Shown in pieces: positions 13,343 through 41,510 of a stretch of 56,816 nucleotides of DNA. The stretch's first letter is position 1; each line of letters starts with the position of its first letter. The translations under genes and the position numbers were made by a program. The notes beneath the pieces were generated by a model. It was given only the letters and a program-made list of their open reading frames with translations. It searched no databases and was not told the origin of the DNA. Origin of the DNA: a virus; the IMG/VR virus record IMGVR_UViG_3300009159_000084, positions 1 to 56,816 of that record; one strand, written 5' to 3'.

Positions 13343-13425
13343 AAGAATTCTACGGACGCTGGAAATACTCCAAAAAGCGCGGGGCATGGATCTGGAAATG
13401 GAAAAAGCGTAAGGTCAACCCATGA
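13339..13425 (+). CDS. 28-residue basic peptide
   Basis: MKEFYGRWKYSKKRGAWIWK plus KKRKVNP is strongly basic and Trp-rich. The ORF is bounded by four-base overlaps with both neighbours, which supports it being translated. It could bind nucleic acid or serve only to couple translation to the ParB-domain gene. Confidence 0.45.
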   Translation: MKEFYGRWKYSKKRGAWIWKWKKRKVNP

Positions 13426-17425: not shown

Positions 17426-17668
17426 TCACTCCTCCACATCGCGTGTCGCAGTACCAAACTTAAAATCACGCTCAAAAAGATCCCGCACAACCAACCACTC
17501 ACTACGGCTATCCCCACGAACAGCGCGATAATTAAGGCTAGGAATAGAAACAGACTCAGACCCGTTCCAATACGAGCCATCCTCCTGTGAAGCATGAAGA
17601 GCAGCACGGCGCACAGCCGCATACTTAGTTTTGAAAGTAGTAATAACGACAACCGTTGAAGTGGACAT
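17426..17668 (-). CDS. Hypothetical 80-residue protein
   Basis: MSTSTVVVITTFKTKYAAVRRAALHASQED... with EWLVVRDLFERDFKFGT. No family recognised. This frame is preferred over a hydrophobic overlapping one because AGGAAAGGAAC is correctly placed before its ATG. It follows the 112-residue gene in the reverse operon. Confidence 0.65.
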   Translation of the reverse strand: MSTSTVVVITTFKTKYAAVRRAALHASQEDGSYWNGSESVSIPSLNYRAVRGDSRSEWLVVRDLFERDFKFGTATRDVEE

Positions 17669-17682
17669 GAATTGTTCCTTTC

Positions 17683-18021
17683 CTAGAACTCGTGAAACCC
17701 AAGGTCATGAAGATCTTCCCGAATGTTGCCCCGCTTAATTTCCCAAGCGGTCAACCGAGCAATCCCCTGATCAATCTGCTTAGCGGACCCCGTGCCATTG
17801 ACTAACCAATAGCGTGTCTGCTTGTAATACTCAGTGGCTTTCTTATCGGCTTCGACCCACCGCTTAACAAGCGATTGGGCTTTCTTGATCGCTGCCCACT
17901 GTTGCTTGGTGATTGTCGGTCCGGCGTAAGTAGCGCCGTTCTTGATGATGTTGGTGACAACGTGTTCGCCGAATTCTTCGACTTTGGTGTATGTCCCGGA
18001 TACGTCCAAAAAGTTGCTCAT
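17683..18021 (-). CDS. Hypothetical 112-residue protein
   Basis: The product MSNFLDVSGTYTKVEEFGEH... is mostly helical and basic (KKAQSLVKRWVEADKKATEYYKQTRYWL). No enzymatic motif is visible. Its ATG overlaps the TGA of the upstream 56-residue gene, so the two are coupled. Function unknown; position suggests an early host-interaction role. Confidence 0.65.
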   Translation of the reverse strand: MSNFLDVSGTYTKVEEFGEHVVTNIIKNGATYAGPTITKQQWAAIKKAQSLVKRWVEADKKATEYYKQTRYWLVNGTGSAKQIDQGIARLTAWEIKRGNIREDLHDLGFHEF

Positions 18022-18188
18022 AGTGACCCCTTCACAACGAAGACAAGATGATTATTAACGGAGACTCGGACATTTTCCCCCTGAGTCTCAAGTTCCAGCG
18101 TCACCTTCTCGCCTCGTGCTAAGTGATCGGCTAGCCGACCAATCGCCTCGGCTACTGCGTAATTAGGCTGCTCTCCCGATATTTTCAT
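18018..18188 (-). CDS. Hypothetical 56-residue protein, first gene of the reverse operon
   Basis: MKISGEQPNYAVAEAIGRLA continues as an amphipathic helix and two beta strands (KVTLELETQ, VRVSVNNHLVFVVKG). The Shine-Dalgarno GAGAGGAAAG precedes the ATG, and a family promoter lies directly upstream. It overlaps the 112-residue gene by four bases. No family recognised. Confidence 0.65.
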   Translation of the reverse strand: MKISGEQPNYAVAEAIGRLADHLARGEKVTLELETQGENVRVSVNNHLVFVVKGSL

Positions 18189-18245
18189 TTTCTTTCCTCT
18201 CTCTCGCTACATGAAAAGCATATCATGCCCCGGGTTAGGTTCATG
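18189..18245 (-). promoter_or_regulatory. Minus-strand promoter of the reverse operon
   Basis: On the minus strand ACCTAACCCGGGGCATGATATGCT gives the family box and the extended -10 TGATATGCT, then a Shine-Dalgarno and ATG 18188. It is back to back with the plus-strand promoter at 18253-18310, with a C-rich tract shared between them. Confidence 0.6.
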
Positions 18246-18252
18246 TATTGGG

Positions 18253-18310
18253 GGGGTGTGTCGGACACTAAATCGGGGTATGGTAAACTATGTTCTGGAA
18301 GGGAGAACAC
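18253..18310 (+). promoter_or_regulatory. Plus-strand promoter of the metalloprotease gene
   Basis: GACACTAAATCGGGGTATGG runs into the extended -10 TGGTAAACT (TAAACT 18284-18289), then GGAAGGGAGAACAC and ATG 18311. The final element is a weaker version of the GGGAGACCC start-associated sequence. Confidence 0.65.
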
Positions 18311-18883
18311 ATGAGACCACGCGACACACAGCGATCTCGCGTCTATGAGGCCGACAGAGCAATTGCCACATGGGCACAAGAAATATCAAACAACGAACTA
18401 CAAGCCTTCGTTGACAAAGCACTAGACAAACGAGCAATCCGAGCACGATGGGGAGCACGCAAGGTCTACGTCGAACTGGGCAGAGGCGGAGCGCACGGTA
18501 ACTACAATCGAATCAGCCTCGGTGTGCAGACACGAAACCCGCACATTATTTGTCACGAACTTGCGCACTCGCTGACCTCAAATAAGTACGCGGCTCACGG
18601 CCCCGAATACTGCGGCGTATACCTGTTTATTGCCAACGTAATTATTGGGCCGGAATTTGCAAAACAACTTCGTGCGGCGTTCAAAGCGCAAAAAGTTAAA
18701 GTCAACAGAAAAGGCATTCCTCCAATTACTGGCACGGTGGTTGAATCTCGATCCGCAGTTGATCGTCTTGCTCGTCAGCGGGCTAAAGCCGAAGCAACGG
18801 CCAAGATTAAGAAATGGATTGAGACCGGGGTGATTAGCAAAGCGGAAGCGAAGCGCGTGGTTGATTCCGCGACACGCCGATAA
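18311..18883 (+). CDS. SprT-like zinc metalloprotease
   Basis: The 190-residue protein has ICHELAHSLTSNKYAAHGPEY (HELAH at 82-86, third ligand probably H96), the HExxH-plus-HG pattern of SprT/WLM-like proteases. N- and C-terminal parts are basic and helical and could bind DNA. Cellular SprT/Spartan proteases degrade DNA-crosslinked proteins; in a phage it could also inactivate a host factor. ATG 18311 is chosen over an upstream ATG because a Shine-Dalgarno is correctly spaced. It has its own promoter. Confidence 0.75.
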   Translation: MRPRDTQRSRVYEADRAIATWAQEISNNELQAFVDKALDKRAIRARWGARKVYVELGRGGAHGNYNRISLGVQTRNPHIICHELAHSLTSNKYAAHGPEYCGVYLFIANVIIGPEFAKQLRAAFKAQKVKVNRKGIPPITGTVVESRSAVDRLARQRAKAEATAKIKKWIETGVISKAEAKRVVDSATRR

Positions 18884-18887
18884 GTAA

Positions 18888-18955
18888 TGCACCCCCGGTT
18901 GTAACACTAAACCGGGGGTGTGCTAAACTGGTTATATCAAGGGACGGGAGACCCA
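18888..18955 (+). promoter_or_regulatory. Model promoter with perfect inverted repeat and start-associated 14-mer
   Basis: CACCCCCGGTT (18890-18900) and AACCGGGGGTG (18910-18920) are perfect 11-base inverted arms with a 9-base spacer. They are followed at once by the extended -10 TGCTAAACT (18921-18929) and by GGGACGGGAGACCC (18941-18954) one base before ATG 18956. The inverted repeat could be an operator, or a hairpin in read-through transcripts. Confidence 0.75.
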
Positions 18956-19828
18956 ATGAGCATCAAAAACCTCGCAGTACAGGTAGACGAACGCCTAGCC
19001 GAATTGCTGTTCGCACGCGAGGAACACCAAATAAAATCCAACTACGCCCGAGACGCCATCCGCCGTGCAGCCGGACAAAAGTCCGACTACCGCACCGGAC
19101 AATGGGACGGCGACTTCCAAACAGCCCTCACCGTTTTGAAAAACGATCCAAGCGAATACAAGCAGCGCCCAATTGCTGAATGGGAAAACCAAAACCGTCA
19201 ACTACTGCAGATCTCTTTCGAGATCGAAGAACTCAGCGAAGTATGGGAAGAAGAACGCTGGACCCGCGCCTTCCTAGTCATCAACGGCAACGGCCACATT
19301 CACTCAACCACCGGCTGCTCAACTTGCTTCCCGACTACCAAGTTCGAATGGCTCACCCAATACAGTGCCGATCTTGAAATTGAGATCGTGGAACTGGCCG
19401 GCGAAACTGCCTGCACGATCTGCTACCCATCGGCTCCCGCCGAGATCTTGAACCGCCCAGCAACGATCCAATCCAAGAACCGCACCGAGCGCGAAGCAAA
19501 CCGCTTGAAAGCCGCTGCCGCTAAAGCCGCCCGTGATGCTAAGCGCATCGCTAGCGCACCAACAGCCGACGGATCCACGTTGTCAGTGCCATCTCGCTGG
19601 AACGGGCGCAACGAAAAAATCAAGACGGAACGGACAGCGATTTCTTTCTGGTACGAGTGTGAAGATGACATTCAATGGAAGTGTGCAGTTGACCGTACGG
19701 ACAAGACTGAGAAGGCAATCGAGGCTCAAACGATCATTGAAGAGGCACTTGCCGGCAAGAACGGGATCACTGCTCTTGAGCAGCGAGAGATCTTGCAGGT
19801 CAAGTACGCCAAGCGACGTAAGAATTAG
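18956..19828 (+). CDS. Conserved actinophage-type protein with two CxxC pairs
   Basis: The 290-residue protein has a helical N-terminus and a central WTRAFLVINGNGHIHSTTGCSTCFPTTKFEWL segment. This is followed by VELAGETACTICYPSAPAEIL, giving two CxxC pairs that likely bind zinc, and then a Lys/Ala-rich helical region. This combination is frequent in actinobacteriophage early regions; its function is unknown to me. It starts at the ATG directly after the 14-base start-associated sequence rather than at an in-frame codon upstream. Confidence 0.75.
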   Translation: MSIKNLAVQVDERLAELLFAREEHQIKSNYARDAIRRAAGQKSDYRTGQWDGDFQTALTVLKNDPSEYKQRPIAEWENQNRQLLQISFEIEELSEVWEEERWTRAFLVINGNGHIHSTTGCSTCFPTTKFEWLTQYSADLEIEIVELAGETACTICYPSAPAEILNRPATIQSKNRTEREANRLKAAAAKAARDAKRIASAPTADGSTLSVPSRWNGRNEKIKTERTAISFWYECEDDIQWKCAVDRTDKTEKAIEAQTIIEEALAGKNGITALEQREILQVKYAKRRKN

Positions 19829-19839
19829 GAGTAAAAACA

Positions 19840-20007
19840 ATGAATGATCCACAAGATATTTTAGGAATTATTTCTGCTTGGGAATACGAAGGCGCATATC
19901 CCGAGGCAATGGAAAAGGCTCGCAAAAAACTGCGTAAAGAATGGCCGGTATTGGCTAGCGCGCTCGATAATGCGGCTAAGCAAAACAGACGAGGAGAACA
20001 GCAATGA
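19840..20007 (+). CDS. Hypothetical 55-residue protein
   Basis: MNDPQDILGIISAWEYEGAY continues as a charged helix (EKARKKLRKEWPVLASALDN). TAGGAG is placed before the ATG and the stop overlaps the next ATG by four bases. No family recognised. Confidence 0.6.
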   Translation: MNDPQDILGIISAWEYEGAYPEAMEKARKKLRKEWPVLASALDNAAKQNRRGEQQ

Positions 20008-20228
20008 TTCAGGTGCCAGCCGTAGGTCAAGTAATCCCCCTTGAGACAGGGGACGCCACCGTCCTAGACATTCGTAGCAGATACGGAGATCTCACCGTGC
20101 TTGCCGGCCGCGATCACCCGGTGCATCCGTTTGCCACATGGAAGTTAGACACTGTGAATGGGGCGCTCTTTGGGGGGCGCTATTTTGTCAAGTTGGCTGA
20201 AGCCGAACTAGACTTCAGTCAGCGCTAA
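20004..20228 (+). CDS. Hypothetical 74-residue beta-rich protein
   Basis: The protein MIQVPAVGQVIPLETGDATV... has short strands and a compact size suggestive of an SH3-like barrel (GDLTVLAGRDHPVHPFATWKL, FVKLAEAELDF). It is coupled to the preceding gene. No family recognised. Confidence 0.6.
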   Translation: MIQVPAVGQVIPLETGDATVLDIRSRYGDLTVLAGRDHPVHPFATWKLDTVNGALFGGRYFVKLAEAELDFSQR

Positions 20229-20285
20229 CCCCCATGTAAGCAATTGGGGTACAATTTTCTAAACCCGGGTAACTAGGGAGGTAGG
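20226..20285 (+). promoter_or_regulatory. Promoter region with a split CCCGGG box
   Basis: AACCCCCATGTAAGCAATTG is followed by GGGGTACAAT (TACAAT 20250-20255). An ACCCGGGT palindrome then lies downstream of the -10, and GGGAGGTAGG precedes ATG 20286. The order of box and -10 is reversed relative to other sites, which might place an operator over the transcription start. Confidence 0.45.
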
Positions 20286-20774
20286 ATGAAAGTTCCATGC
20301 AAGGTGTGTGCTCAATTCCTTGACCCCGTATGGGTCGAAGTAGGAGTCGACGCTCACCCATCATGTGAGTCTGATTTCGAATGTCCCCATGGTGTTGAAC
20401 GCGGACCTCGCTATTGCCCTTTCTGCCGGAAAACCAATCCGGGCCTCACCGCTCCAATAGCCCTAGAAAAGGCTAGGAAGCCGGTAGAGCGCCAAGTCGT
20501 GCTAGTTGGGGCCGAACACCCTCAGTCCTCGCAACTGGCAGCCCAGAGGGCCCTGCCGTCCTCGGGCTCAAAGCGCCGTCTCGTACTTGACGCGATCCGT
20601 GAGTCAGGAGACGGGCTTTGCGACTGGCAGTTAGAACGCTTACTGGAGTGGAAGCATGAGTCAGCGTCAGCCTGTAGGCGTAGCCTTGTGAAGGATGGGT
20701 GGGTGCAGGATTCTGGGAGAGTCCGGCCCGTGCCTGATACGGGTAATGCGGCGATTGTTTGGGTTACTGCCTGA
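20286..20774 (+). CDS. Zinc-finger plus winged-helix-like protein
   Basis: The 162-residue protein begins with cysteine pairs (CKVC at 5-8; CPHG...YCPFCRK at about 33-48). It has a basic linker and then RRLVLDAIRESGDGLCDWQLERLLEWKHESASACRRSLVKDGWV, a winged-helix-like fold. Such zinc-plus-winged-helix proteins occur in actinobacteriophage early regions and may be DNA-binding regulators. A strong Shine-Dalgarno precedes the ATG. Confidence 0.7.
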   Translation: MKVPCKVCAQFLDPVWVEVGVDAHPSCESDFECPHGVERGPRYCPFCRKTNPGLTAPIALEKARKPVERQVVLVGAEHPQSSQLAAQRALPSSGSKRRLVLDAIRESGDGLCDWQLERLLEWKHESASACRRSLVKDGWVQDSGRVRPVPDTGNAAIVWVTA

Positions 20775-20838
20775 CCCCCCTGTAAACACCTAACCCCGGG
20801 TGTGCTAAAATAAAGTTGTCTAGGAGAGGAGACACAAA
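20773..20838 (+). promoter_or_regulatory. Promoter of the repeated family
   Basis: TGTAAACACCTAACCCCGGG leads to the extended -10 TGCTAAAAT (TAAAAT 20806-20811), then AGGAGAGGAGACACAAA before ATG 20839. The last element resembles, but does not match, GGGACGGGAGACCC. Confidence 0.65.
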
Positions 20839-20964
20839 ATGAACGAAATCCAATGCGCAACGTGCGACGGAAAAGGTTATTGGCTCGTATGGGGCAGTGA
20901 CGGAAAAGAGATCAAAGACTGCTACAACTGTGGCGGCCACGGCACCGTCAAGGCTCGGTCATGA
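20839..20964 (+). CDS. DnaJ-like zinc-finger miniprotein (41 residues)
   Basis: Two CxxCxGxG-type knuckles are visible: CATCDGKG and CYNCGGHG, as in one DnaJ zinc finger. The protein has its own promoter and overlaps the next gene by four bases. It may bind a protein partner or nucleic acid; no known phage role. Confidence 0.7.
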   Translation: MNEIQCATCDGKGYWLVWGSDGKEIKDCYNCGGHGTVKARS

Positions 20965-21383
20965 GAGACGCAGCCCAAAATGTGCGCTTCAAATTTGCCC
21001 AACTGGTCAATGAATTTGGCACCGAATGGGAAATAGTTCAACACAGCCCCACAGGCCCAAACGACGGAGAATGCTGGACCCGGGCTTGGAACCGCTCCAA
21101 CACAGAAGGCTTGGAGTACGCCGAGGGATTCGCTGTAACCCCACAAACTCTTGTCATCCACGGATTTAGTGTCAAAAAGAGCCTGCTCGGTGAAACAGTT
21201 ATTGAATCTACCGAGGGATTCGAAAAAGCCTTGGCCTATAAGGGTTTTGTCATAAACACGCAGCATCCGCATGTAATCAAGGTAATTGATTTGCATCGCA
21301 GGGCCGGAGATCCAAATTCAAGCGTTTTGGAAACCATTTTGTACTCGCAGCCTTGGGAGCGAGTGCGGGAGGTAATCAAATGA
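20961..21383 (+). CDS. Hypothetical 140-residue protein
   Basis: MRDAAQNVRFKFAQLVNEFG is followed by a mixed alpha/beta body (WEIVQHSPTG, LVIHGFSVKKSLLGETVIES). No motif recognised. It is coupled by four-base overlaps to genes on both sides. Confidence 0.6.
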   Translation: MRDAAQNVRFKFAQLVNEFGTEWEIVQHSPTGPNDGECWTRAWNRSNTEGLEYAEGFAVTPQTLVIHGFSVKKSLLGETVIESTEGFEKALAYKGFVINTQHPHVIKVIDLHRRAGDPNSSVLETILYSQPWERVREVIK

Positions 21384-21580
21384 AAGCCCACGATCCGCGT
21401 ACTGTGATAGCCATCACATTAGCCGGTGTGTTGCCCGATAACTGTTCAATTTCAACGTTTTCTTTGCAAATTGCCGAGCAACTGGCACACTGGCTAACTA
21501 TGAAAGCCGAAGAATTTGATGCGCTCGATGATCGAGCCCCCGGCTATCACGAATTAGCACAGCGCCTAACAGCCCGCTAA
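21380..21580 (+). CDS. Hypothetical 66-residue protein
   Basis: The helical protein MKAHDPRTVIAITLAGVLPD... contains SLQIAEQLAHWLTMKAEEFDAL and ends ELAQRLTAR. ATG 21380 overlapping the preceding stop is preferred. No family recognised. Confidence 0.6.
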   Translation: MKAHDPRTVIAITLAGVLPDNCSISTFSLQIAEQLAHWLTMKAEEFDALDDRAPGYHELAQRLTAR

Positions 21581-21612
21581 TTCTGTCCCTGTCCCCGAGT
21601 GATCGGATAATC

Positions 21613-22116
21613 ATGCTCGAAACTCTTGTATTGGCTGCTGCATTGATTGCAACGCCTGAAATGAAGCAAGTCCCATCTACCCCGCCGGCAGTGGTGGCCA
21701 CTAGGCAAGACCCAAATCAAACAGGAATCAAAGACAGCGCCTACAAGGGTAAGTTCTACCTTAAAGGCCGATTCGAGCCGTATCGCAAATGCGTAGCCTT
21801 TCGAGAAGGGCGCGGCCAATACTGGGGAACCGGATCACACGGCTTATACCAATCCACTTACCAAATGACAGCACCGCTAGTCAGGGGCGCCGCTTGGATG
21901 ATGGGCCCAGAACTGCGCCGCATGTTCGGCGTCAAGCAAGGCAACGTCATCCAATACCGCCTCCTACACACCAAGGGAAGCAAGTGGAGCCGTTTCTACA
22001 TGGACATGGGGTTCTACACCATTCTCAACTGGAAAGGCCCCGGAGAGGGCGATAAACACTGGCACGGAGGCCGCTACGGCTGCAGCCTGCGAGCAAAAAC
22101 ATGGAAGGTGGCCTAA
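21613..22116 (+). CDS. Secreted lysozyme/transglycosylase-like protein
   Basis: The 167-residue protein starts with a short hydrophobic segment (MLETLVLAAALIATPE) that could be a signal peptide. It contains RKCVAFREGRGQYWGTGSHGLYQSTYQMT, like the catalytic-Glu segment of Rpf/lysozyme-type muralytic domains (E in FREGR), then WMMGPELRRMFG, FYMDMGFYTILNW and WHGGRYGCSL. It lies far from the lysis cassette among early genes. A wall-remodelling or host-waking role is speculative. No clear Shine-Dalgarno. Confidence 0.65.
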   Translation: MLETLVLAAALIATPEMKQVPSTPPAVVATRQDPNQTGIKDSAYKGKFYLKGRFEPYRKCVAFREGRGQYWGTGSHGLYQSTYQMTAPLVRGAAWMMGPELRRMFGVKQGNVIQYRLLHTKGSKWSRFYMDMGFYTILNWKGPGEGDKHWHGGRYGCSLRAKTWKVA

Positions 22117-22226
22117 TGGCAGACCCCACAAAAGTCACCACCTGCCCACGATGTGGGCAACCTGTCTGGTCACCGACACTAGAAAACAAAGGCTGCCCGA
22201 TTTGTAAGGCTCTCGACGGCCGCTGA
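22116..22226 (+). CDS. 36-residue zinc-ribbon protein
   Basis: TTCPRCGQPVWSPTLENKGCPICK contains two CxxC pairs. Its ATG overlaps the previous stop by one base. Likely a zinc knuckle; function unknown. Confidence 0.6.
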   Translation: MADPTKVTTCPRCGQPVWSPTLENKGCPICKALDGR

Positions 22227-28934: not shown

Positions 28935-30455
28935 ATGGCACCCCGGGTTGATCTAGGAGAACTAGGCACCTCTGGTCTTAAGCGGACCAGCGGATTTGTC
29001 TATGACGAATTCCTCACCCGACTACGCGGAATTCAGGGTGTACGCACCTACCGCGAAATGTCGGACAACGATCCCGTCATTGGCGCCGTGCTGTATGCCA
29101 TCGAGAAAGTTATTACCCGCCTTGAATGGCGCGTCGATCCCTACCGCGACAACACCCCTGACGGTGAACCAGACACAAACGATGTAGAAACCGCTGAGTT
29201 CATTGAATCATGCCTCAACGACATGAGCGACTCATGGGACTCAACGCTGTCACAAATTCTTTCCATGTGCATTTACGGTTGGTCATTCCACGAAATCGTA
29301 TACAAGCGCCGCATTGACCCCGAACAAAAAGATCCATCAAAGCGTTCAAAATACACCGACGGTAAAATTGGTTGGCGCAAGTGGGCTATCCGTGGCCAAG
29401 AAACACTCTACCTATGGACGTTTGATAAAGACGGCGGCATTCAAGGAATGCAGCAAGTCGATCAATACAGTGGACACGGCAACGTAGAGATCCCTATCGA
29501 AAAGGCTCTGTTATTCCGCACCACTGCAGCAAAAAACAACCCTGAAGGCCGCTCACTGTTGCGTAACGCTTTCCGCCCTTGGTGGTACAAGCGTCGCATT
29601 GAAGAAATTGAAGCCATCGGTATCGAGCGTGACCTTGCCGGTCTCCCAATCGCAAGCGTCCCACCGGAATACCTGTCAAGCACTGCCACTGCTGAACAAA
29701 AGCAAGTACTTGCAGCAATTCAGCAAATGGTCACGTCGATTAAACGCAATGAAAACGAGGGCATCGTTTTCCCAATGGTGTACGACGAATCAGGCCACAA
29801 ACTGTTTGACCTGACCCTGTTGAGTAGTGGCGGATCACGCCAATTCGACACAGACAAAATCATTTCCCGCATGGATGCCCGCATTGCTATGAGCGTCCTA
29901 TCGGACTTCATTCTCCTCGGTCAAGATCGCGTGGGTTCATTCGCTCTCGGTGCAACAAAAATGGATCTATGGTCCATGTCCGTTGACTCTATTGCTAAAA
30001 CCATTGCAGATACCGTCAATCAGCACGCCATCCCTCGCCTACTACGCTTGAATGGCATGGACGCTAGCCGTCCGCCCGTGCTGCAATACAGCGAAGTCGC
30101 GCACGTTGATCTTGCTGAGATCGCGGACTTCGTGGCGAAGATGACAACCGCTGGAGTGCTCGCACCGGATCCCGCTCTGGAAGATCACTTGCGTGAAGTT
30201 GCCGGTCTTCCACCCGCTTCGCATGACTTCCAAGACAGCGGATCGGGGCAGATGAGTGCCGATGACGTGAAGAACCTCATGGCCCTCCCGCCCGCTCAAC
30301 GTATCGTGGCTGAACGTACCGGTATTGTTCCCGATAAGCCTGCATTCCCCGGCGCACTGCCGAACGTGCAAAGCAAGAATCAGGAAAACAAACCGTCGTT
30401 CCCGGGTTCAGGTAACAACACTGAAAAGCCGGGCACTGATACCGCAACGGAGTAG
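28935..30455 (+). CDS. Portal protein (DUF935/Mu gp29-like)
   Basis: The 506-residue protein has DNDPVIGAVLYAIEKVITRLEWRVDPY, a FxxIL...YGWSFHEIVYKRR segment and LLFRTTAAKNNPEGRSLLRNAFRPWWYKRRIEE, matching the core of DUF935-type portals. It also has DTDKIISRMDARIAMSVLSDFILLG. The Pro/Gly-rich tail is disordered. It would form the dodecameric DNA channel contacting terminase. GGCGGGAG precedes ATG 28935. It is followed by MuF, the usual order. Confidence 0.9.
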   Translation: MAPRVDLGELGTSGLKRTSGFVYDEFLTRLRGIQGVRTYREMSDNDPVIGAVLYAIEKVITRLEWRVDPYRDNTPDGEPDTNDVETAEFIESCLNDMSDSWDSTLSQILSMCIYGWSFHEIVYKRRIDPEQKDPSKRSKYTDGKIGWRKWAIRGQETLYLWTFDKDGGIQGMQQVDQYSGHGNVEIPIEKALLFRTTAAKNNPEGRSLLRNAFRPWWYKRRIEEIEAIGIERDLAGLPIASVPPEYLSSTATAEQKQVLAAIQQMVTSIKRNENEGIVFPMVYDESGHKLFDLTLLSSGGSRQFDTDKIISRMDARIAMSVLSDFILLGQDRVGSFALGATKMDLWSMSVDSIAKTIADTVNQHAIPRLLRLNGMDASRPPVLQYSEVAHVDLAEIADFVAKMTTAGVLAPDPALEDHLREVAGLPPASHDFQDSGSGQMSADDVKNLMALPPAQRIVAERTGIVPDKPAFPGALPNVQSKNQENKPSFPGSGNNTEKPGTDTATE

Positions 30456-30457
30456 TT

Positions 30458-31576
30458 ATGGCGTTGACCATTGGTGGCAAGGGTCGCAATCCCGGCGGCT
30501 CTGGCCCTCAGGCCCCGCTTACCCCGTTGGAGCAGTCGCTCACTGAGCGTGTTGCTGCAGCATTGCGGGTATTGGGCACACAGATGGATCCCGATGCTTA
30601 CGCACGCGCTATAACGGCTCTTGATCCCGATCTGTTGGAACGTTTGCTTGCAAACATCAACATGGATCGCATTGACATGCTTATGCGTGACACGATGCGG
30701 GGCATTGTTATTAAGGGCGGCACTGAAGAGGCTCGCCGTATTTTGCGTTCTAATCCTCGAGCACAGTTCAACATGGATTCCGCTCTTGCCTATACAGGCC
30801 AGAAACTTGAATCAGGCATTATCCTGCCGGGTAGTCAACTGCCACCCCCTCCCGGTATCGAGTTTGCTCTTGAAACCCCCGTTGAGCGAATGTTTAACAC
30901 GATCAGCACCCGGGCGACCGATTATGCGACAACACGATCAGCGCAACTCGTGCGCGAGATCACTGACGCTAACCGTCTCGCTATTCGTCAAGTAATCTCA
31001 CAGGCATTCACAAAACCTCGGACAGTGGACGCTACAGCCCGTGAACTACGGCAAATTGTTGGCCTTCATCCACGGTGGGCTCGTGCCGTGCTGAATTTTG
31101 ATGAAAAGAATTTCACGGCCATGGTGAAGGCCGGTGTGTCACTCGATGATGCCCGTGCCCGTACCGATAACTTGACGAAAAAGTATCGAGATAAGTTGAT
31201 TCGTCGCCGCGCTGAAATGATTGCCCGCACTGAAGTGCAACAGGCTCAAAACTTTGGTCGCGCTGCATCATGGGAGGCGTCAGATAAAGCCGGTCTCGTG
31301 GATCCCACCTCGATGAAAGAATGGCGCACGGCGCCTCGTGGGTCGAGTTACGGGGAGCCATGTGACGAATGTGCTGCTATGCGGGGCACGCGGGTACCTT
31401 GGAACGGAACGTTTGGTAATGGTGACGTAATGCCACCGGCTCATCCTCATTGCCGCTGTACAGCCGTTCTTGTCCCGCCTACTCGTGGGCTTGAAGGATT
31501 ACCTTCTCAGGATCTTGGTTCATGGATTACTCAATTGGATGCGTTGGAAGCGCAAGATGCGGCGGTTACCTCATGA
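30458..31576 (+). CDS. MuF-like minor head protein
   Basis: The 372-residue protein has AEMIARTEVQQAQNFGRAASWEAS, then KEWRTAPRGSSYGEPCDECAAMRG and DVMPPAHPHCRCTAVLV. The ARTE...W...C..C...G...PPAHPxCRC pattern defines the phage Mu protein F family. MuF proteins sit inside the head and can carry toxin extensions; here the toxin-like domains are in the separate genes that follow. ATGA overlap couples it to the next gene. Confidence 0.9.
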   Translation: MALTIGGKGRNPGGSGPQAPLTPLEQSLTERVAAALRVLGTQMDPDAYARAITALDPDLLERLLANINMDRIDMLMRDTMRGIVIKGGTEEARRILRSNPRAQFNMDSALAYTGQKLESGIILPGSQLPPPPGIEFALETPVERMFNTISTRATDYATTRSAQLVREITDANRLAIRQVISQAFTKPRTVDATARELRQIVGLHPRWARAVLNFDEKNFTAMVKAGVSLDDARARTDNLTKKYRDKLIRRRAEMIARTEVQQAQNFGRAASWEASDKAGLVDPTSMKEWRTAPRGSSYGEPCDECAAMRGTRVPWNGTFGNGDVMPPAHPHCRCTAVLVPPTRGLEGLPSQDLGSWITQLDALEAQDAAVTS

Positions 31577-33399
31577 CCGAAATCTATTTTGAGCCCGGTC
31601 TTACTCCCGTTTTGAAGCATCCCGGTCATTCCGATCAAAAAGTTCATGGGCGGCGCGGCCCCGGCGTGTCAGTAAAACCTGAAGTCGCTGGATCCATCCT
31701 TGAGCGGGTAAAAGCCAATGGTGGCTTGTCGGTGAACATGCTTGACGGGTCGGAGCCAACTACTGGGTTCATGGTCGCTAAGGGCGGCACTAAGGGCGAC
31801 ATCGTTGATGCGGATGAATTCTTTGACGCTAAGAAAGGTCCGGCTCATCTTTCATCATTTTTGAAGACACATAAAGCGTCCCTAACTAAGGGTTCATACC
31901 TCGGGTTATGGCACAACACTGAAGATGGTAAGGTCTACCTCGACGTATCCGACAACATCAAGGATCGTGGGAAAGCAATAACTGCAGGGAAACGGCGTAA
32001 CCAGATTAGTATTTGGGACGTCGCTAATTTTAAGGAGATCGGTACAGGTGGCACAGGAGAACTCGCCAAAGAAATTGCAGGCAGTGGAGTTGCCGGATTT
32101 GTCGACGGCTACGGACGAAGAGATCGACAAGTACGCGCAACAGATCTGGGAGAAGTTCGCTCAGACTCAGTAGTCGTAAAGTTTGCTCCCGGTCTTGTTC
32201 CTTTGTTGAAGCACGGTGATCTTTCACGCCCCGGGTATGCGGCAATGCACCCCGATAGTCAAGGACGAATCGGTGTACACACCGGTCGACGCACTGACGC
32301 AAAAAATCAAGCAAAAGCAGATGCAAACCTTATTCATGAGGCGACCTCGCTGGAGGCGCTACCTGCCGATATGCAAGGTCGAGTCAACGAAGGTCTCACA
32401 ACCCTCGGTATTACATCAGATCAAATGGATGCAAACATTGAAGCAACCCTCAGTCGAGCCAATATCGACGGAGCAGATCCCGCTGGACAAAACTGGTACG
32501 GCGACGCAAACGCCGCATCTAAAGACATATCAGAACGATATGGCGTAACTCATGAACAATCCGCCGGGATGATTGCAGCGACAAGCCCACAGCAACCGTG
32601 GGGCGATAACGTTACAGCGGTTGAATACATGGCTAAAGCAACAAAAGAAAACCACGAAATTCAAACTGGCGCCCTCATGGATCACCAACGCACTAAAGGC
32701 AAGGGCGATACTCGATCACTTTACGAATGGGCAAAATCGGAAGTAGATGGCCGCACTATGGATGGCGAAATACACAACATGCCGGCCATTGCAGAACTAC
32801 AGGGCAAGCGCATGTCGGACATTAAAGATCCTTATGTGCGGGCCGCTTTGATGAAGGCTCAAGCCCAAATGGGTTACCGTGTTTCAGGTATCGGCACAAA
32901 TAAAGATGGGCAATCGTTGAAAACGGTTGACGATCTCACCGGTCTTGTAGCCCCCGTCAAATTTACTTGCGGCGTTCAACATCTTGGCCGTGCGGTGAGG
33001 ATTTCTGATGGAGAGCAACCGGACATGGTGCTTAATGGGCATAAAGTTCGTTCGTTCTATAACAACATTCGCAATCCTAAAAGTAAGCACGATGACATTA
33101 CGGTTGATTCTCATGCTTTCAGTATTGCGATGGGTAAAAAGTACGGTTCGGGGTCCGATGAATACAAGTATTTCAGCGGTTCGGGTTGGAAGGCACGCGG
33201 TGCCTCACCGGTTTCGAACAAAACGCTTGGGGTTTCGGGTCTTTATCCCGCGTTTGCTGACTCTTATCGCCGGGTAGCAGCAAAACATGGACTGTCAGCG
33301 CATCAAGTGCAATCCATAACGTGGGTTCAATGGCGTAAAGACAACCCCGATCAAACTCGTGGTGGACAAATGGCTAGGGAGGCCGCAAATGCCGGATAA
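31573..33399 (+). CDS. Large modular head-module protein with KHPGHSDQ motif
   Basis: The 608-residue protein starts MTEIYFEPGLTPVLKHPGHS and has KHPGHSDQKVHGRRG at residues 15-29. Module A (about 35-190) has GFMVAKGGTKGDIVDADEFF and ISIWDVANFKEI. After a second linker-like LKHGDLSRPG (about 213-222), module B (about 240-608) has NWYGDANAASKDISERYGVTHEQSAGMIAATSPQ, a pattern I associate with uncharacterised phage DUF7178-like domains. No catalytic site is certain. It lies between MuF and the zeta-domain protein, so injected effector modules are plausible. ATG 31573 overlaps the MuF stop. Confidence 0.75.
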   Translation: MTEIYFEPGLTPVLKHPGHSDQKVHGRRGPGVSVKPEVAGSILERVKANGGLSVNMLDGSEPTTGFMVAKGGTKGDIVDADEFFDAKKGPAHLSSFLKTHKASLTKGSYLGLWHNTEDGKVYLDVSDNIKDRGKAITAGKRRNQISIWDVANFKEIGTGGTGELAKEIAGSGVAGFVDGYGRRDRQVRATDLGEVRSDSVVVKFAPGLVPLLKHGDLSRPGYAAMHPDSQGRIGVHTGRRTDAKNQAKADANLIHEATSLEALPADMQGRVNEGLTTLGITSDQMDANIEATLSRANIDGADPAGQNWYGDANAASKDISERYGVTHEQSAGMIAATSPQQPWGDNVTAVEYMAKATKENHEIQTGALMDHQRTKGKGDTRSLYEWAKSEVDGRTMDGEIHNMPAIAELQGKRMSDIKDPYVRAALMKAQAQMGYRVSGIGTNKDGQSLKTVDDLTGLVAPVKFTCGVQHLGRAVRISDGEQPDMVLNGHKVRSFYNNIRNPKSKHDDITVDSHAFSIAMGKKYGSGSDEYKYFSGSGWKARGASPVSNKTLGVSGLYPAFADSYRRVAAKHGLSAHQVQSITWVQWRKDNPDQTRGGQMAREAANAG

Positions 33400-33598: not shown

Positions 33599-36571
33599 GT
33601 GACTGATACAGCGACCCGTCTTGCGGGGCTCTCGGATGAGCGCCTCATGTCCCTACACAAAGCAGCGGACAAAAAAGCCCCTGTCGACGCGGCCCAAATT
33701 GAAGCACATCACCTTATTGCTACAGAATTGTTGAAGCGCGGACTAGAACACGGCCATAATGACGATTCTTGGGCCTCTGCAGTCATCATTAAAGACACTG
33801 TAGGCATTTCCTCACCGGAAGAAATTGACGCCCCAGAGGGCATGGAAAAGGCTTGGGCTGAAACGCTGAAAGATGGCGGCACGGTCTCAATTTTGCTCAC
33901 AGTTGACGGTTACGTCCTCAAAGCAGATCCAACTGTCTCCGATGTCCACGTCGATGCCGTAATGGGGGGCCGTCGCCGTCGCCCATTAGACAAAGCCGAA
34001 TGGAAAGAGGGAGACTTCGCGGTCTGGGGTTCCTCCGGCGGATCAGCCAGAGGACAGATCGAGCACATCATGCGGGAAGGAGTCCTCGGTATACCCGATA
34101 GCGACTTTAGTATTGAAGCCACGGAAGATGATCCGGCTGTTCTGCTGCGGATCTTCCGTAAAGGTCCTAAAGGTTGGGCTGCAACAGAGACCCTCGTAGG
34201 TCACAAGATGTCTGCCCTTAACCCCATCGAAGACTTGATTAAGGAAGCGGGCTATCAAGTACCCGAAGGGGTGCAATCCGCTGCTAAAACTGCCCTCAAG
34301 TGGATCGCTGATGGTCAATCGGGTGACGGGTTCACGTCAGTTGGTAGAAATAGAGCCGATCAACTCGCCTCCGGTGGAACTGTAAGTCGCGCAACCCTCG
34401 TTAAGATGAGGGCCTATTTCGCTCGACATTTTGTGGATAAAGAGGCTGAGGGATGGGGAGACCGCACTGATCCAACCCCCGGTATGGTTGCTTGGTATGC
34501 GTGGGGCGGTGACGCTGGCCGCACATGGGCGAACACAATACTAGGCAAGGTCGAGAAGCGCGCCATCCCAGAAGCGATCACAGATCTACACATAAACATT
34601 GAAAACCGTCAGCACGCTATAGACGAATATTTGTATGGCCCAATGAATCCTGAGGAGCCCGGTGACTACTGGGAGCGACTGGGCGCAGTTTGGGATGTTT
34701 CCGCAGAAGAGGCTTTCACAACCCACTGCGGAAATTGCTCTGCCTTCAACATCACGCCAGAAATCCGCACCGCTATCGCTGACGCTATCGGGGAAGGCGG
34801 CGAAGAGGTAGTAACCTCCGCCGACCTCGGCTACTGCGAACTGTTTCAGTTCAAATGTGCTGCCGCCCGTTCCTGCTCCGCTTGGCTGGTTGGGGGGCCA
34901 ATTGGATTATCCGACGAAGAAGAAGATGGGGAGATTGAACTTCTTGCCTCCATGGATCAACAAGATCTTACAGATTTTGCTAGTTACGCCTACCTCGCTG
35001 ACGAAAACAGCATAGACAAGGCTGGTAACCCTGAATCGTTGCGCGATTATTGGCGCGGCGGCGGCAAGGGCAAAGTGTCATGGGGTGCCGGTGGAGATTT
35101 TACTTCATGTGTCGCCGCTGTAGGCAAGTACATGAGCAGCGAGCAGGCTAAGGGCTATTGCGCTATTCGTCACCGTGAGGTTACGGGAATGTGGCCGGGA
35201 GATAAGCGCAACCGTATGAAGAAAGAATCAACCGTTGTGTTGAAGCATCCGGGTCACAGTGATCAAAAAGTTCATGGCGGTCATGGTGGTGGCGCGGGTA
35301 CTGATCTTTCCCCTGAAGGCAAGACTCTTATCAAGCAGAATCTTTCACGCGGCAATCTTGTCGAGTCCTACGGTGCGTCATATGATCACGGCAAGGCGGC
35401 AAAAGCATTTGGTCAAGATCACGTCGACCGTAAAGTAAGCGAGTCCGTTGGTAAGCGCGATGCGTTGATCAGTCAACACGCCGGTAAGACACGTTCTCAC
35501 GCTACTGAAGGTGCGGCGTTTTCTGTTGCCTCACATCAAGGTTTCATTGATGGGGCCATGGGACGTAAAGCACAGTTTGCTCGGTCACATAACTTTGGTG
35601 AAACTGTCGCTGGATTCTTTGGCGCTGGCCTATCTGGTGCGACTAAGGCTCGTGAACCGTTCGAGAAACATCCGGGTCACTCTGATCAGTCAGTCCATGG
35701 CCGTAAGGGTGGAGGATCTGCAAGCGCTGGGGCTAAGGCTCCCGCAAAGGTCGAACCTAAGACTGGTGTTAAGCGTCCCGGTATGGGCGACGGTACAAAA
35801 GTAAGCGACGAAGATTTTGCTAAATTAAAAGACGGATCCGCTGGGGCGCATATTATTGGGCGCGACAAAAACGGCGCTCCTATTTTCACCCCGGAACGTC
35901 AAGCGCTCCACGATAAAATTGTTCTTGACTCAGTAACAGGGGTGCCTACTTCAAAAGATTTGACTTACAGTATGCTCGGGGGAGGCCCCGCTGCTGGAAA
36001 GTCAAGCATGGAATCCAAAGTTATTGGTGACTATAGAGGGAAAGCCGTTGCCGTTAATTCAGACAACGTAAAAGTGCAACTTCCTGAATTTCAAGCAAAA
36101 ATTGACAGCGGCACTACTGGTTCTGAAGCCGCAGCGTTTGTGCATGAAGAATCTTCATACGTTGCAAAACGTGTTCAACAAGCCGCATTTGAGCGTCGTC
36201 AAGACGTTGTGCTTGATGGCACGGGTGATTCAAGCGCTGAAGGTTTGCAGGGAAAAATAGATAAAGCGCATAAACTTGGTTATACAGTCAATGGATATTA
36301 CGCGACTCTTCCAACTGAGACTGCCGTTCGGTTAGCGAAACAACGCGAAGCAGAAACTGGTAGAGGTGTTCCTGAACACACTATTAGAGGGACACATAAA
36401 TCAGTTTCGCAAGTTTTTCCAACTGCGGTTAAAGGTATGGACAAAATTCAATTATTTGATACGTCTGATTTTTCGGCAGGCCCTAAATTGATTGCCGAGG
36501 GAAGTAAAGGCCGTTTAATTATCCGCGACGCGGATGCTTACGAGTCTTTCTTAAATAAGGGGAATGAATAA
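33599..36571 (+). CDS. 990-residue modular head protein ending in a zeta-toxin kinase domain
   Basis: Domains in order. Residues about 130-210 form a small Tudor/HVA1-like barrel (EGDFAVWGSSGGSARGQIEHI). Residues 223-320 form a helical region (RADQLASGGTVSRATLVKMR; WYAWGGDAGRTWAN). Residues 339-430 form a Cys-rich region (CGNCSAF; CELFQFKCAAARSC). Residues 490-540 include CAIRHREVTGMW. KHPGHSDQKVHG occurs at about 549 and KHPGHSDQSVHG at about 690. The zeta-toxin-like domain (about 750-990) has Walker A LGGGPAAGKSSM (792-803), HEESSYVAKR and DVVLDGTGD. Zeta toxins phosphorylate UDP-N-acetylglucosamine. The first regions recur in phage head proteins. GTG start with weak Shine-Dalgarno. Confidence 0.8.
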   Translation: MTDTATRLAGLSDERLMSLHKAADKKAPVDAAQIEAHHLIATELLKRGLEHGHNDDSWASAVIIKDTVGISSPEEIDAPEGMEKAWAETLKDGGTVSILLTVDGYVLKADPTVSDVHVDAVMGGRRRRPLDKAEWKEGDFAVWGSSGGSARGQIEHIMREGVLGIPDSDFSIEATEDDPAVLLRIFRKGPKGWAATETLVGHKMSALNPIEDLIKEAGYQVPEGVQSAAKTALKWIADGQSGDGFTSVGRNRADQLASGGTVSRATLVKMRAYFARHFVDKEAEGWGDRTDPTPGMVAWYAWGGDAGRTWANTILGKVEKRAIPEAITDLHINIENRQHAIDEYLYGPMNPEEPGDYWERLGAVWDVSAEEAFTTHCGNCSAFNITPEIRTAIADAIGEGGEEVVTSADLGYCELFQFKCAAARSCSAWLVGGPIGLSDEEEDGEIELLASMDQQDLTDFASYAYLADENSIDKAGNPESLRDYWRGGGKGKVSWGAGGDFTSCVAAVGKYMSSEQAKGYCAIRHREVTGMWPGDKRNRMKKESTVVLKHPGHSDQKVHGGHGGGAGTDLSPEGKTLIKQNLSRGNLVESYGASYDHGKAAKAFGQDHVDRKVSESVGKRDALISQHAGKTRSHATEGAAFSVASHQGFIDGAMGRKAQFARSHNFGETVAGFFGAGLSGATKAREPFEKHPGHSDQSVHGRKGGGSASAGAKAPAKVEPKTGVKRPGMGDGTKVSDEDFAKLKDGSAGAHIIGRDKNGAPIFTPERQALHDKIVLDSVTGVPTSKDLTYSMLGGGPAAGKSSMESKVIGDYRGKAVAVNSDNVKVQLPEFQAKIDSGTTGSEAAAFVHEESSYVAKRVQQAAFERRQDVVLDGTGDSSAEGLQGKIDKAHKLGYTVNGYYATLPTETAVRLAKQREAETGRGVPEHTIRGTHKSVSQVFPTAVKGMDKIQLFDTSDFSAGPKLIAEGSKGRLIIRDADAYESFLNKGNE

Positions 36572-36573
36572 AG

Positions 36574-37440
36574 ATGGCTAAAGCAAGTGATATTTTTTCA
36601 ATTACCGCAGAAATAGTGCGTGGCAAAGAAAAAACAGATAGTTTGGTTCCGTTGGATTCTGAATTATCTGAATTATGGGATTTGATTGCGGCAGATGTTG
36701 CTGCATCTCCTGAAACTATTTGGGATATTCCAAGCGAAAATCCTGATATCGATACGGATGATCTTGCATATATGGATGAGCCTGCAACAAAAAGTATCGG
36801 TATCGAGTCAGATGAATTAACGCTCGTATCTAAAGCCGTGCCAGAGCGTATGTTCACCCTTGGCCCGATGTACATCCCCAATCGCATGGATGCACACGCC
36901 GAATGGACAGACCCCGATGAACTACAGAAAGCCGTTTGGGAATACGTCCGCAAGGGTGACCGTCGCATCAGGCTGCAACACAACCGCGATGTAGTAGCAG
37001 GTGAGTTCGTTGAAGTCATGGCATGGCCGTATCCCGTTGAAGTACCCATGGTGCAAAAAAGCGGTGCTACAACAAACATGACTTTCCCCGCTAACACTGT
37101 TTTCCTTGGTGTCGTGTGGGAGCCATGGGCATGGGAGTTAGTGAAGAACGATAAGTTACGCGGCTACTCAATCGGCGGCCGTGCCGAGCGCCTTCTCGCT
37201 GACCTTCCTGAAGAGTACGTCGGTAAGGCTATGGCACCGTTTGAAGACGCTATCCGCATTGAGGCTGAAGATTCACCTCAGCAACCAATCGACATTGGGC
37301 AGCAGATCGCTACCGCTGTCGCTGAAGCAATGAAATCAATTAGTCCTACCGTTAATGTCGTCATGCCTGAAGACAAGCCTAAGATTAGGCGCGTCGAACG
37401 TGATGATCACGGCAATATTTTACGAATCGTTGAGGAGTGA
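36574..37440 (+). CDS. XkdF-like capsid maturation protease
   Basis: The 288-residue protein has VPERMFTLGPMYIPNRMDAHAEW, ELQKAVWEYVRKGDRRIRLQHN, VAGEFVEVMAWPYPVEV and NTVFLGVVWEPWAWELVKNDKLRGYSIGG. This order is characteristic of XkdF-type putative serine proteases, which cleave scaffold and capsid during maturation. The acidic N-terminal 80 residues may be a propeptide. AAGGGGAATG precedes the ATG. The scaffold follows about 1.9 kb downstream. Confidence 0.8.
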   Translation: MAKASDIFSITAEIVRGKEKTDSLVPLDSELSELWDLIAADVAASPETIWDIPSENPDIDTDDLAYMDEPATKSIGIESDELTLVSKAVPERMFTLGPMYIPNRMDAHAEWTDPDELQKAVWEYVRKGDRRIRLQHNRDVVAGEFVEVMAWPYPVEVPMVQKSGATTNMTFPANTVFLGVVWEPWAWELVKNDKLRGYSIGGRAERLLADLPEEYVGKAMAPFEDAIRIEAEDSPQQPIDIGQQIATAVAEAMKSISPTVNVVMPEDKPKIRRVERDDHGNILRIVEE

Positions 37441-38444: not shown

Positions 38445-38960
38445 ATGTTTCTGTCCAATGACAATGGGGTAAGTACCTCATTCGCTAAGCAGGCCACGCC
38501 AATGTTTAAGGCAGCCCCTGAAGTTGTGGCAGTACTACGCCCCTTGCTCGCTGACGTGTACGCCATGCAGACCGCTGTTCAGGGCGCTCACTGGAACGTG
38601 CAGGGCACTGACTTTGCTCAATACCATGAACTCTTCGCTGAGATCTATAGCGATGTCGCGGACAGCATTGACCCGCTCGCTGAGAACATCCTTAAGGCCG
38701 GCGGGCTCGCTGTAGCGTCCCTGACCGACATGCAGGCCCTCCGTACCACCACTGACCCGGTAGAGTCCCGCGATGCACGCCAATTGGCTATCGGTCTTGC
38801 TGCAATGAATGACGCCGTGCTCGTGCGGATCAATGCCGCATTCCTTGTGGCCGAGTCACAGAATGAGCCGGGCATCTCGAATTTCCTTGCTGACCGTGAC
38901 GACATGCACAAGAAGTGGCGCTGGCAGTTGCGTGCATCTCTTGGTGAGCCTGTTGGCTAA
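38445..38960 (+). CDS. dps: Dps/ferritin-like protein
   Basis: The 171-residue protein has the Dps signature AHWNVQGTDFAQYHELFAEIYSDVADSIDPLAE, giving ferroxidase ligands H49, H61, D76 and E80, with QAVQ... helices typical of the four-helix bundle. Length matches bacterial Dps (about 150-180). Dps 12-mers bind iron and protect DNA from oxidative damage. It has its own promoter and Shine-Dalgarno in the middle of the head genes. It could protect packaged or replicating DNA, or the host under stress. Confidence 0.88.
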   Translation: MFLSNDNGVSTSFAKQATPMFKAAPEVVAVLRPLLADVYAMQTAVQGAHWNVQGTDFAQYHELFAEIYSDVADSIDPLAENILKAGGLAVASLTDMQALRTTTDPVESRDARQLAIGLAAMNDAVLVRINAAFLVAESQNEPGISNFLADRDDMHKKWRWQLRASLGEPVG

Positions 38961-40529: not shown

Positions 40530-41510
40530 ATGCCACAGCCAACAATCAGCAGCGTCCATATTGATGCGATCCTGACTAACGTCTCGATTGCATATATGCA
40601 GCAGGCTCAGAACTTTATCGCAGATAAGGTTTTCCCTATCGTTCCTGTCGATAAGAAGTCAAACAAGTACTTCACCTACTCAAAGAACGATTGGTTCCGT
40701 GACGAGGCTCAGCGCCGCGCTCCGGGTACTGAATCAGCCGGTGGCGGTTACACGCTTTCGACCGATTCATACAGTGCAGATGTGTGGGCATTCCATAAGG
40801 ATGTCGACGATCAGACACTCGCTAACGCTGACACCCCTCTAAACCCTCTTCGTGAGGCTGCAGAGTTTGTCACCTCCCGTTTGCTGCTCCGTCGTGAAGT
40901 TCAGTTCATTACTGACTACATGGCTGCAGGCGTATGGGGCACCACCGCATCGGGTGTTTCTTCCGCTAGCCCATCTACAAATGAGTTCACTCAGTGGAGC
41001 GATTACGCTAACTCGGATCCAATCGAGACCATTGAAGCAGCAAAGGCAACAATTCTTAGCAGCACAGGCTACGAGGCCAATACCCTCGTACTTGGCTACG
41101 ACGTGTTCCGCAAGTTGAAGAATCACCCTGACGTAATTGATCGTTACAAGTACACGACCGCTAACGTCATCACTGAAGACATGCTTGCACGTCTGTTCGG
41201 TGTTGACCGTATCCTCGTGGCTAAGTCAGTGCGTGCAACCAACGCTGAAGGCGCTACTGCGGCTTACGGTTTCAACTTCGGCAAGGCTGCTTGCTTGCTC
41301 CACGTTGCACCAAATCCGGGCTTGATGACGCCATCCGCTGGCTACATCTTCGCTTGGACCGGTGTTTCAGGTGGCCTCGGTTCAACCATCGGTACTTCAC
41401 AGTTCCGTATGGAATACTTGAAGGCAAGCCGTGTTGAGGCTGAAGTTGCGTTCGACAACAAGGTTGTCGCCACGGACCTCGGTTACTTCATGACCACTGC
41501 GGTTGCTTAA
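40530..41510 (+). CDS. Major capsid protein
   Basis: The 326-residue protein has NFIADKVFPIVPVDKKSNKYFTYSKNDWFRDEAQRRAPGTESAGGGYTLS and LREAAEFVTSRLLLRREVQF. It continues with VLGYDVFRKLKNHPDVIDRYKYT and a strand-rich C-terminus. This matches E-type (lambda gpE-related) HK97-fold major capsid proteins. AAGGAGAAC precedes the ATG. A strong hairpin follows the stop. Confidence 0.9.
   Translation: MPQPTISSVHIDAILTNVSIAYMQQAQNFIADKVFPIVPVDKKSNKYFTYSKNDWFRDEAQRRAPGTESAGGGYTLSTDSYSADVWAFHKDVDDQTLANADTPLNPLREAAEFVTSRLLLRREVQFITDYMAAGVWGTTASGVSSASPSTNEFTQWSDYANSDPIETIEAAKATILSSTGYEANTLVLGYDVFRKLKNHPDVIDRYKYTTANVITEDMLARLFGVDRILVAKSVRATNAEGATAAYGFNFGKAACLLHVAPNPGLMTPSAGYIFAWTGVSGGLGSTIGTSQFRMEYLKASRVEAEVAFDNKVVATDLGYFMTTAVA

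Follow-up and report, generated by a model that had tools for sequence, protein, structure and literature searches.

Here we analysed a 56,816-bp stretch of DNA from an uncultured phage (the whole of IMG/VR record IMGVR_UViG_3300009159_000084, which is linear and perhaps incomplete; referred to here as the window) that encodes a modular head protein of 990 amino acids ending in a kinase domain of the zeta superfamily. We propose, with a probability of roughly 55%, that this kinase is an effector carried as virion cargo: a partner, which in the window is joined to the adjacent head maturation protease, would restrain or escort the kinase until the head matures, and the kinase would then be injected. 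The proposal builds on the pairing of kinase and partner, the fusion of partner and protease, the conservation of the catalytic residues and the presence of a homologue in virions. Short recurring peptides, here termed headers, precede the kinase and many unrelated modules.

The kinase domain and its substrate

The open reading frame (ORF) exists as given in the original prediction, which was made from the DNA sequence, and has the following layout:

33599–36571, + strand: modular 990-amino-acid head protein with a C-terminal zeta-superfamily kinase domain, GTG start
33599–33943, + strand: N-terminal alpha/beta domain, residues 1–115, with the signature AHH...RGxxHGHxDDxW
34010–34147, + strand: Tudor-like barrel part, residues 138–183 (PF11160, E = 5e-4, under the curated cut-off)
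34244–34561, + strand: helical head-protein domain, residues 216–321 (PHROG 2859), with a confident fold in the model
34595–34894, + strand: Cys-rich domain, residues 333–432 (tblastn)
35012–35221, + strand: small domain, residues 472–541 (PHROG 6439), also found in Gordonia and Microbacterium phages
35243–35278, + strand: class-1 header KHPGHSDQKVHG, residues 549–560, in a predicted disordered segment
35279–35665, + strand: short module A, residues 561–689, of low confidence and mostly disordered in the model
35666–35701, + strand: class-1 header KHPGHSDQSVHG, residues 690–701, in a predicted disordered segment
35783–36568, + strand: zeta-superfamily kinase domain, residues 729–990, with K801, D822, D873, R916 and R922 conserved

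We are confident that the C-terminal domain has the zeta-superfamily kinase fold and contains all of the essential kinase residues. The motifs on which the prediction had relied were located, namely Walker A LGGGPAAGKSSM (residues 793–804), HEESSYVAKR (residues 849–858) and DVVLDGTGD (residues 869–877), and the Pfam family Zeta_toxin (PF06414) matches residues 789–942 far beyond chance (E = 8.2e-22; 78 bits against a cut-off of 22). An AlphaFold (AF2) model of residues 729–990, made with 53 sequences, reached a predicted local distance difference test (pLDDT) score of 95.6 and a predicted template-modelling (pTM) score of 0.91. A Foldseek search of the PDB with this model ranked AvrRxo1 first (E = 2.9e-12, template-modelling (TM) score of 0.70) and also returned zeta (1GVN; E = 1.3e-11, TM score of 0.69), so the structural check that had been suggested bears out the fold. 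Sequence profiles matched zeta (1.8e-14), AvrRxo1 (2.3e-11) and PezT (2.8e-8), the AvrRxo1 match spanning positions 31–262 of 268 with both domain ends included.

Mutational work on zeta identified K46, D67, E116, R158 and R171 as essential, and D67, E100, E116 and T128 as the residues that touch UDP-N-acetylglucosamine (UDP-GlcNAc; UNAG) (PMC6356619). We carried these residue numbers to the phage kinases through profile alignment. The essential residues correspond to K801, D822, D873, R916 and R922, and their equivalents are kept in at least 52 of the 53 phage domains, E116 as Asp; judged by its sequence, the phage kinase is competent. The DGTG motif and the R171 equivalent are also as in zeta. 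At the UNAG-contact positions, E100 is Lys in 49 of 53 phage relatives and T128 is Lys in 51 of 53, and 52 of 53 phage domains have Asp or Asn where the GTxR motif has Arg. AvrRxo1 likewise keeps the ATP-site residues and has lost those of the UNAG site; it phosphorylates nicotinamide adenine dinucleotide (NAD) at the 3′ position and has no significant UNAG kinase activity (PMC5087710). With the UNAG-contact residues replaced and the ATP-site and catalytic residues kept, UNAG is an unlikely substrate of the phage kinase. If a substrate is to be guessed, NAD-like molecules are preferable to UDP-GlcNAc, as the UNAG-contact residues are absent and as AvrRxo1 is equally near in fold and has its inhibitor gene in the same place, downstream.

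These results bear on the first alternative, that of a genuine zeta toxin: by phosphorylating UDP-GlcNAc, the protein would impair or stop the synthesis of the cell wall in the cell it has entered. Its zeta fold, conserved catalytic core, DGTG motif and R171 equivalent would all fit, and a cell-wall role is proposed for MuF-fused zeta-like kinases in Iyer et al. 2017 (PMC5512222). The original prediction had leaned the same way. We nevertheless consider this improbable: nearly all phage relatives have Lys at the E100 and T128 positions and Asp or Asn in place of the GTxR Arg, and the best fold match, the NAD kinase AvrRxo1, lacks a UNAG site and matches the entire domain. The cell-wall reading was dropped once the residue mapping had placed Lys at the two contact positions. 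A large family of phage proteins commonly labelled ‘zeta toxin, cell wall’ would need re-annotation, as the loss of the UNAG site directs attention to nucleotide or NAD chemistry.

Scanning IMG/VR for kinase relatives returned 176 phage stretches, from which 80 loci and 45 nonredundant kinase ORFs were retained. Fusions among these ORFs involve MuF (12), S78_2 (3), portal (3), ferritin (1) and ADP-ribosyltransferase (1) domains, and in PHROGs the kinase region falls in a ‘minor head protein’ family. Head proteins bearing a zeta-superfamily kinase are therefore common, contrary to the expectation that the arrangement would be unusual; MuF-fused zeta-like kinases have already been reported (Iyer et al. 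2017; PMC5512222). By sequence, gp30 (ORF 030) of cyanophage P-SS2 is a MuF–zeta–ADP-ribosyltransferase protein, the kinase of which is of the same subtype (38.9% identity, with HEESS and DGTGD). Mass spectrometry of purified virions detected this protein (17648–22147, 1500 amino acids), averaging 96.5 peptides (PMC2784084). The kinase family thus enters virions, the experimental evidence being this homologue.

The kinase partner and the header peptides

The kinase has what its sequence context marks as a dedicated partner: a separate gene downstream, a C-terminal fusion or, in the window, the N-terminal domain of the XkdF protease. Both this fusion and the headers had been missed by the original prediction.

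36574–36762, + strand: cognate kinase-partner domain, residues 1–63 of the XkdF protease ORF
36574–37440, + strand: XkdF-type head maturation protease with the partner at its N terminus; Peptidase_S78_2 at residues 84–206

The protease ORF begins 3 bp past the stop codon of the 990-amino-acid ORF. Directly 3′ of most kinase genes lies a conserved gene of about 64–94 amino acids that overlaps the kinase gene by 1–4 bp, and the partner domain of the window is homologous to this stand-alone gene of other phages. A first hidden Markov model (HMM), trained on 18 small downstream genes with the XkdF protease of the window and locus L102 excluded, matched the N-terminal 61 amino acids of the XkdF protease of the window (E = 7.9e-9) and, in L102, a domain attached to the C terminus of the kinase (E = 5e-8). 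Among loci that were not fetched through the kinase, 5 of the 23 that have a kinase also have the partner, as against 0 of the 334 that lack one. An extended HMM detected it in 67 of 103 kinase loci as compared with 0 of 334 kinase-less loci, of which only the zero is independent because the extended training set includes kinase loci. When IMG/VR was scanned by the partner alone (six seed sequences), 15 loci were recovered, and in all 14 that have upstream sequence the kinase immediately precedes the partner.

Partner-like N termini occur in the XkdF proteases of the window and of L226/L270, L243/L248, L167/L281, L284, L039, L143 and L228, all of them directly downstream of a kinase; the more divergent of these were judged by eye and then by the extended HMM. 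The 21 XkdF ORFs of kinase-less loci have other N termini, and in L013/L319 the XkdF N terminus differs, with no relation to the partner established. For AvrRxo1, too, the gene of the antitoxin, Arc1, follows that of the kinase, and Arc1 is predicted to block access to the ATP site (PMC4938570). In two further ORFs (L269:6031–7011 and L277:5093–6082), the partner is fused to a header of the ‘NPxQPRDxxGRF’ type and an ADP-ribosyltransferase-like module.

The class-1 header, KHPGHSDQ[KS]VHG, occurs in the window at 31615, 35243 and 35666, and is followed each time by a module; a fourth DNA match at 6567 was rejected as chance because it lies out of frame within another ORF. A DNA-pattern scan of IMG/VR returned 111 stretches for this header, not all of which are true headers. 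The variant KHG[ST]H[DN]QxxHG gave at least 120, and the nonredundant ORFs from both patterns number 243, each holding at most four copies. The modules that follow include ADP-ribosyltransferase, PI3/4-kinase-like, peptidase, RelA-like, glutamine-amidase-like, nuclease and DUF7178 domains (the peptidase and some RelA assignments were made by eye from motifs). Within one polypeptide, headers also follow portal (L028, L035), ClpP-type protease (L040) and S78_2 protease (L102) domains. The first header lies within 80 amino acids of the upstream stop in 157 of 223 ORFs, as compared with 47 expected, and positions beyond the search pattern are conserved too (W at +8 in 237 of 364). Header codons are about as variable as the background (0.552 identical versus 0.507 expected from background codons of the same ORFs), which indicates that selection acts on the header peptide and not on the DNA. 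In a model of the whole protein, both headers of the 990-amino-acid protein fall in segments of very low confidence, presumably disordered.

A second class of header, GGPGSGNFGHxGRPGEVGGS, was found in at least 120 IMG/VR stretches, and the two classes share a locus in 0 of 166 and 1 of 117 cases. Compared with control loci, class-1 headers are enriched for MuF, Portal_Mu and S78_2 neighbours, with cap_E also nearby, whereas the neighbours and fusions of class 2 involve Phage_portal_3; the contrast in portal family between the classes is significant (P = 7e-5). The same kinase subtype follows four or more types of header, and at least 16 changes were reconstructed on the kinase tree. From these patterns we infer that one header can stand in for another and that headers act as address or processing signals, each specific to a head type.

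Other observations concern the wider range of headers. In a different phage group (L320–L439), the class-2 peptide is nearly invariant over 20 residues and occurs up to four times per locus, in proteins that carry topoisomerase IB, NUDIX, PBECR, Ntox50, CdiA_C and zeta modules; no publication on this peptide was found. Polyproteins with 3–5 headers (L102:2780–6679, + strand; L149:602–3346, + strand; L101:2459–6016, − strand) join ADP-ribosyltransferase, GNAT-like, HEXXH peptidase and ParB-like modules, and a search of isolate phages with that of L149 gave no match. The leaders CGTGAGGFKPGNKC, SAAGRKAALARWG and GHEHKGKGPGGGQF, which recur ahead of the same kinase (L286, L288, L243 and L301), are possibly further header classes. 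Short header peptides had no tblastn match in isolate phages even at E = 10, a negative that is no proof of absence because such searches are probably insensitive; full-length header proteins had almost no matches in isolate phages. A strict-header scan of genome contigs returned four stretches, one of them clearly real (L116, Rhizocola hellebori). The header sequences were not found in the literature, with subscription journals mostly outside the coverage.

Proposed mechanism and alternatives

In the cargo model, the kinase would be made late, together with the head proteins, and would be bound by the partner, which would keep it inactive or escort it. The partner–protease fusion and the header would bring the kinase into the prohead; being fused to the maturation protease, the partner would on binding also carry the cargo to the protease there. 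Active only in the prohead, the protease would cut partner and cargo modules apart, perhaps in or close to the headers, and the freed kinase would be ejected along with the DNA and would phosphorylate a nucleotide-type small molecule in the next host.

Several points weigh against this model. Inhibition, cleavage and injection of the kinase, as well as its substrate, are elements that we infer, and cleavage at the headers is conjecture. The partner profile had no match in the PDB, including the chains of epsilon, PezA and the AvrRxo1 inhibitor, and about one third of the kinase loci, mostly of other clades, have no recognisable partner. The invariance of HEESS is partly built in, because HEESS served as a search seed. 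The P-SS2 protein has neither a class-1 header nor an XkdF fusion, so virion incorporation is proven for the kinase family only.

A second alternative is that the kinase acts in assembly only, for example on head proteins or a prohead cofactor, with the partner as a chaperone for folding or incorporation and with no action in the next host. In its favour, all of the partners are head-assembly proteins and the kinase partner is joined to the maturation protease, but the same headers precede ADP-ribosyltransferases, peptidases, RelA-like domains, nucleases and other modules typical of host-directed effectors. The kinase also appears to be dispensable, being absent from the majority of class-1 phages that have this head module, and we regard an assembly-only role as unlikely. 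Still less probable is a toxin–antitoxin pair that works within the producing cell, in superinfection exclusion or protection against gene loss, the head fusion being incidental: the tight pairing with a small downstream gene does resemble AvrRxo1 and Arc1 (PMC4938570), but the kinase is fused to MuF, portal and protease domains in many phages, and the abundance of the homologue in virions is unexpected for a purely intracellular pair. That headers are recombination joints (seams of DNA shuffling) and the kinase a neutral hitchhiker could explain why one kinase subtype follows four or more types of header and why its tree shows at least 16 changes, but this reading was dropped after the codon test (0.552 versus 0.507) and, with the catalytic residues kept in at least 52 of 53 domains, has very little left to commend it.

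Returning to the cargo model, we tentatively suggest a more specific form, which we would not yet favour: a capsid-coupled toxin–antitoxin system, in which the inhibitor is built into the maturation protease, the effector is armed in the prohead and the headers are an address code that loads unrelated effectors. If true, the effector would stay inactive in the producing cell until the protease fires inside the prohead, and a small set of head-module-specific headers would serve kinases, ADP-ribosyltransferases, peptidases and nucleases. The partner–protease fusion suggests that control of the effector is tied directly to head maturation. Beyond T4 and a few giant phages, the identity of head cargo, how cargo is chosen and how phages protect themselves from the effectors they inject are open questions; as a testable address code, 12–20 header residues would predict virion cargo across hundreds of uncultured phages.

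The head module and known systems

The head module encodes, in order, a Portal_Mu-type portal, MuF, a 625-amino-acid protein, the 990-amino-acid protein, the XkdF/S78_2 protease, a ferritin/Dps-like protein and the major capsid protein. The kinase gene had been placed between MuF and the protease; it does adjoin the protease, but the 625-amino-acid ORF separates it from MuF.

28935–30455, + strand: portal protein, Portal_Mu type (Pfam)
30458–31576, + strand: MuF protein, an ORF of its own (Pfam)
31522–33399, likely start 31573, + strand: 625-amino-acid second header-bearing protein with a DUF7178 module
31615–31650, + strand: class-1 header KHPGHSDQKVHG inside the 625-amino-acid protein
32209–32259, + strand: class-3 header-like peptide KHGDLSRPGYAAMHPDS inside the 625-amino-acid protein
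40530–41510, + strand: major capsid protein, Phage_cap_E (Pfam)

The N-terminal half of the 990-amino-acid protein is modular and made of head-protein pieces, as predicted: segments 138–373, 219–323, 333–432 and 464–546 are common to head proteins of other phages by tblastn, as are PHROGs 2859 and 6439. The Cys-rich part was recovered in this way and resembles proteins of other phages annotated as ‘high potential iron-sulfur protein’, whereas the Tudor-like barrel, also predicted, is only weakly matched. The domain at residues 1–115 is N-terminal in L013 and L102 too, and the segment GFIDGAMGRK of module A recurs ahead of zeta in L013, L102 and L270.

In the 625-amino-acid protein, the class-1 header is followed by a module shared with Rhodococcus phage Jflix2, the class-3 header KHGDLSRPGYAAMHPDS and DUF7178, the last resembling gp9 of Roseobacter phage SIO1. 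The Dps/ferritin-like gene of the head module lies at 38445–38960; in L013/L319 this ferritin domain forms the N-terminal part of a fusion with a header and the kinase, which suggests that the Dps-like protein is also virion cargo. Elsewhere in the window, a ParB-like protein with two ParB-type stretches (13422–14555) is encoded beside the terminase small subunit (14571–15065; PHROG matches).

Phage T4 packages Alt and its internal proteins in the head and injects them as effectors, and the internal proteins have N-terminal targeting peptides that the head protease cuts off. Alt is also covered by Iyer et al. 2017 (PMC5512222). The sequences here differ from those of T4, and the function of the headers is putative. 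With epsilon/zeta and PezAT, the phage kinase shares the fold, Walker A and the equivalents of D67, E116 (Asp here), R158 and R171; it differs in that the UNAG residues are not kept, the partner is downstream and unrelated in sequence, and the kinase is joined to head proteins. AvrRxo1 with Arc1/AvrRxo2 shares the whole-domain fold, HxESS and the lack of a UNAG site, whereas the phage DGTG motif and R171 equivalent follow zeta and the context is a phage virion; Arc1/AvrRxo2 occupies the same gene place as the phage partner, with no detectable sequence similarity. P-SS2 ORF 030, found in purified virions (PMC2784084), is likewise a head-region gene with this kinase subtype, but it is fused to MuF, no class-1 header or XkdF–partner fusion was seen, and P-SS2 carries an integrase.

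MuF polymorphic toxins (Jamet 2017; PMC5576092) similarly have a toxin-like C terminus on a head protein. In those toxins MuF is N-terminal in the same protein and a small, immunity-like gene lies just downstream, whereas here MuF is a separate ORF (12 of 45 relatives have the fusion) and the partner is fused to the protease, although it stands alone in relatives. A zeta domain is not mentioned in that study, in which known toxin domains occur in temperate phages only; here, neither PF00589 (integrase) nor PF00239 (resolvase) had a match in the 56.8-kb record, linear and perhaps incomplete.

Polyvalent proteins, as described in Iyer et al. 2017 (PMC5512222), are large and multidomain, occur with portal, terminase and head genes, carry several effector-type domains and are predicted to be packaged and injected; a MuF-fused zeta-like kinase is named among them, with a function given as cell-wall directed. 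The protein studied here similarly combines several effector or accessory domains in one polypeptide amid head and packaging genes. The passages of that paper covered here describe neither header peptides nor a cognate partner, and attribute processing to built-in zincin peptidases, whereas we propose the partner-bearing XkdF protease. As a general kind, the head-packaged polyvalent effector is already known; the literature covered contains no description of the header code, of the cognate partner and its joining to the head protease, or of the absent UNAG site.

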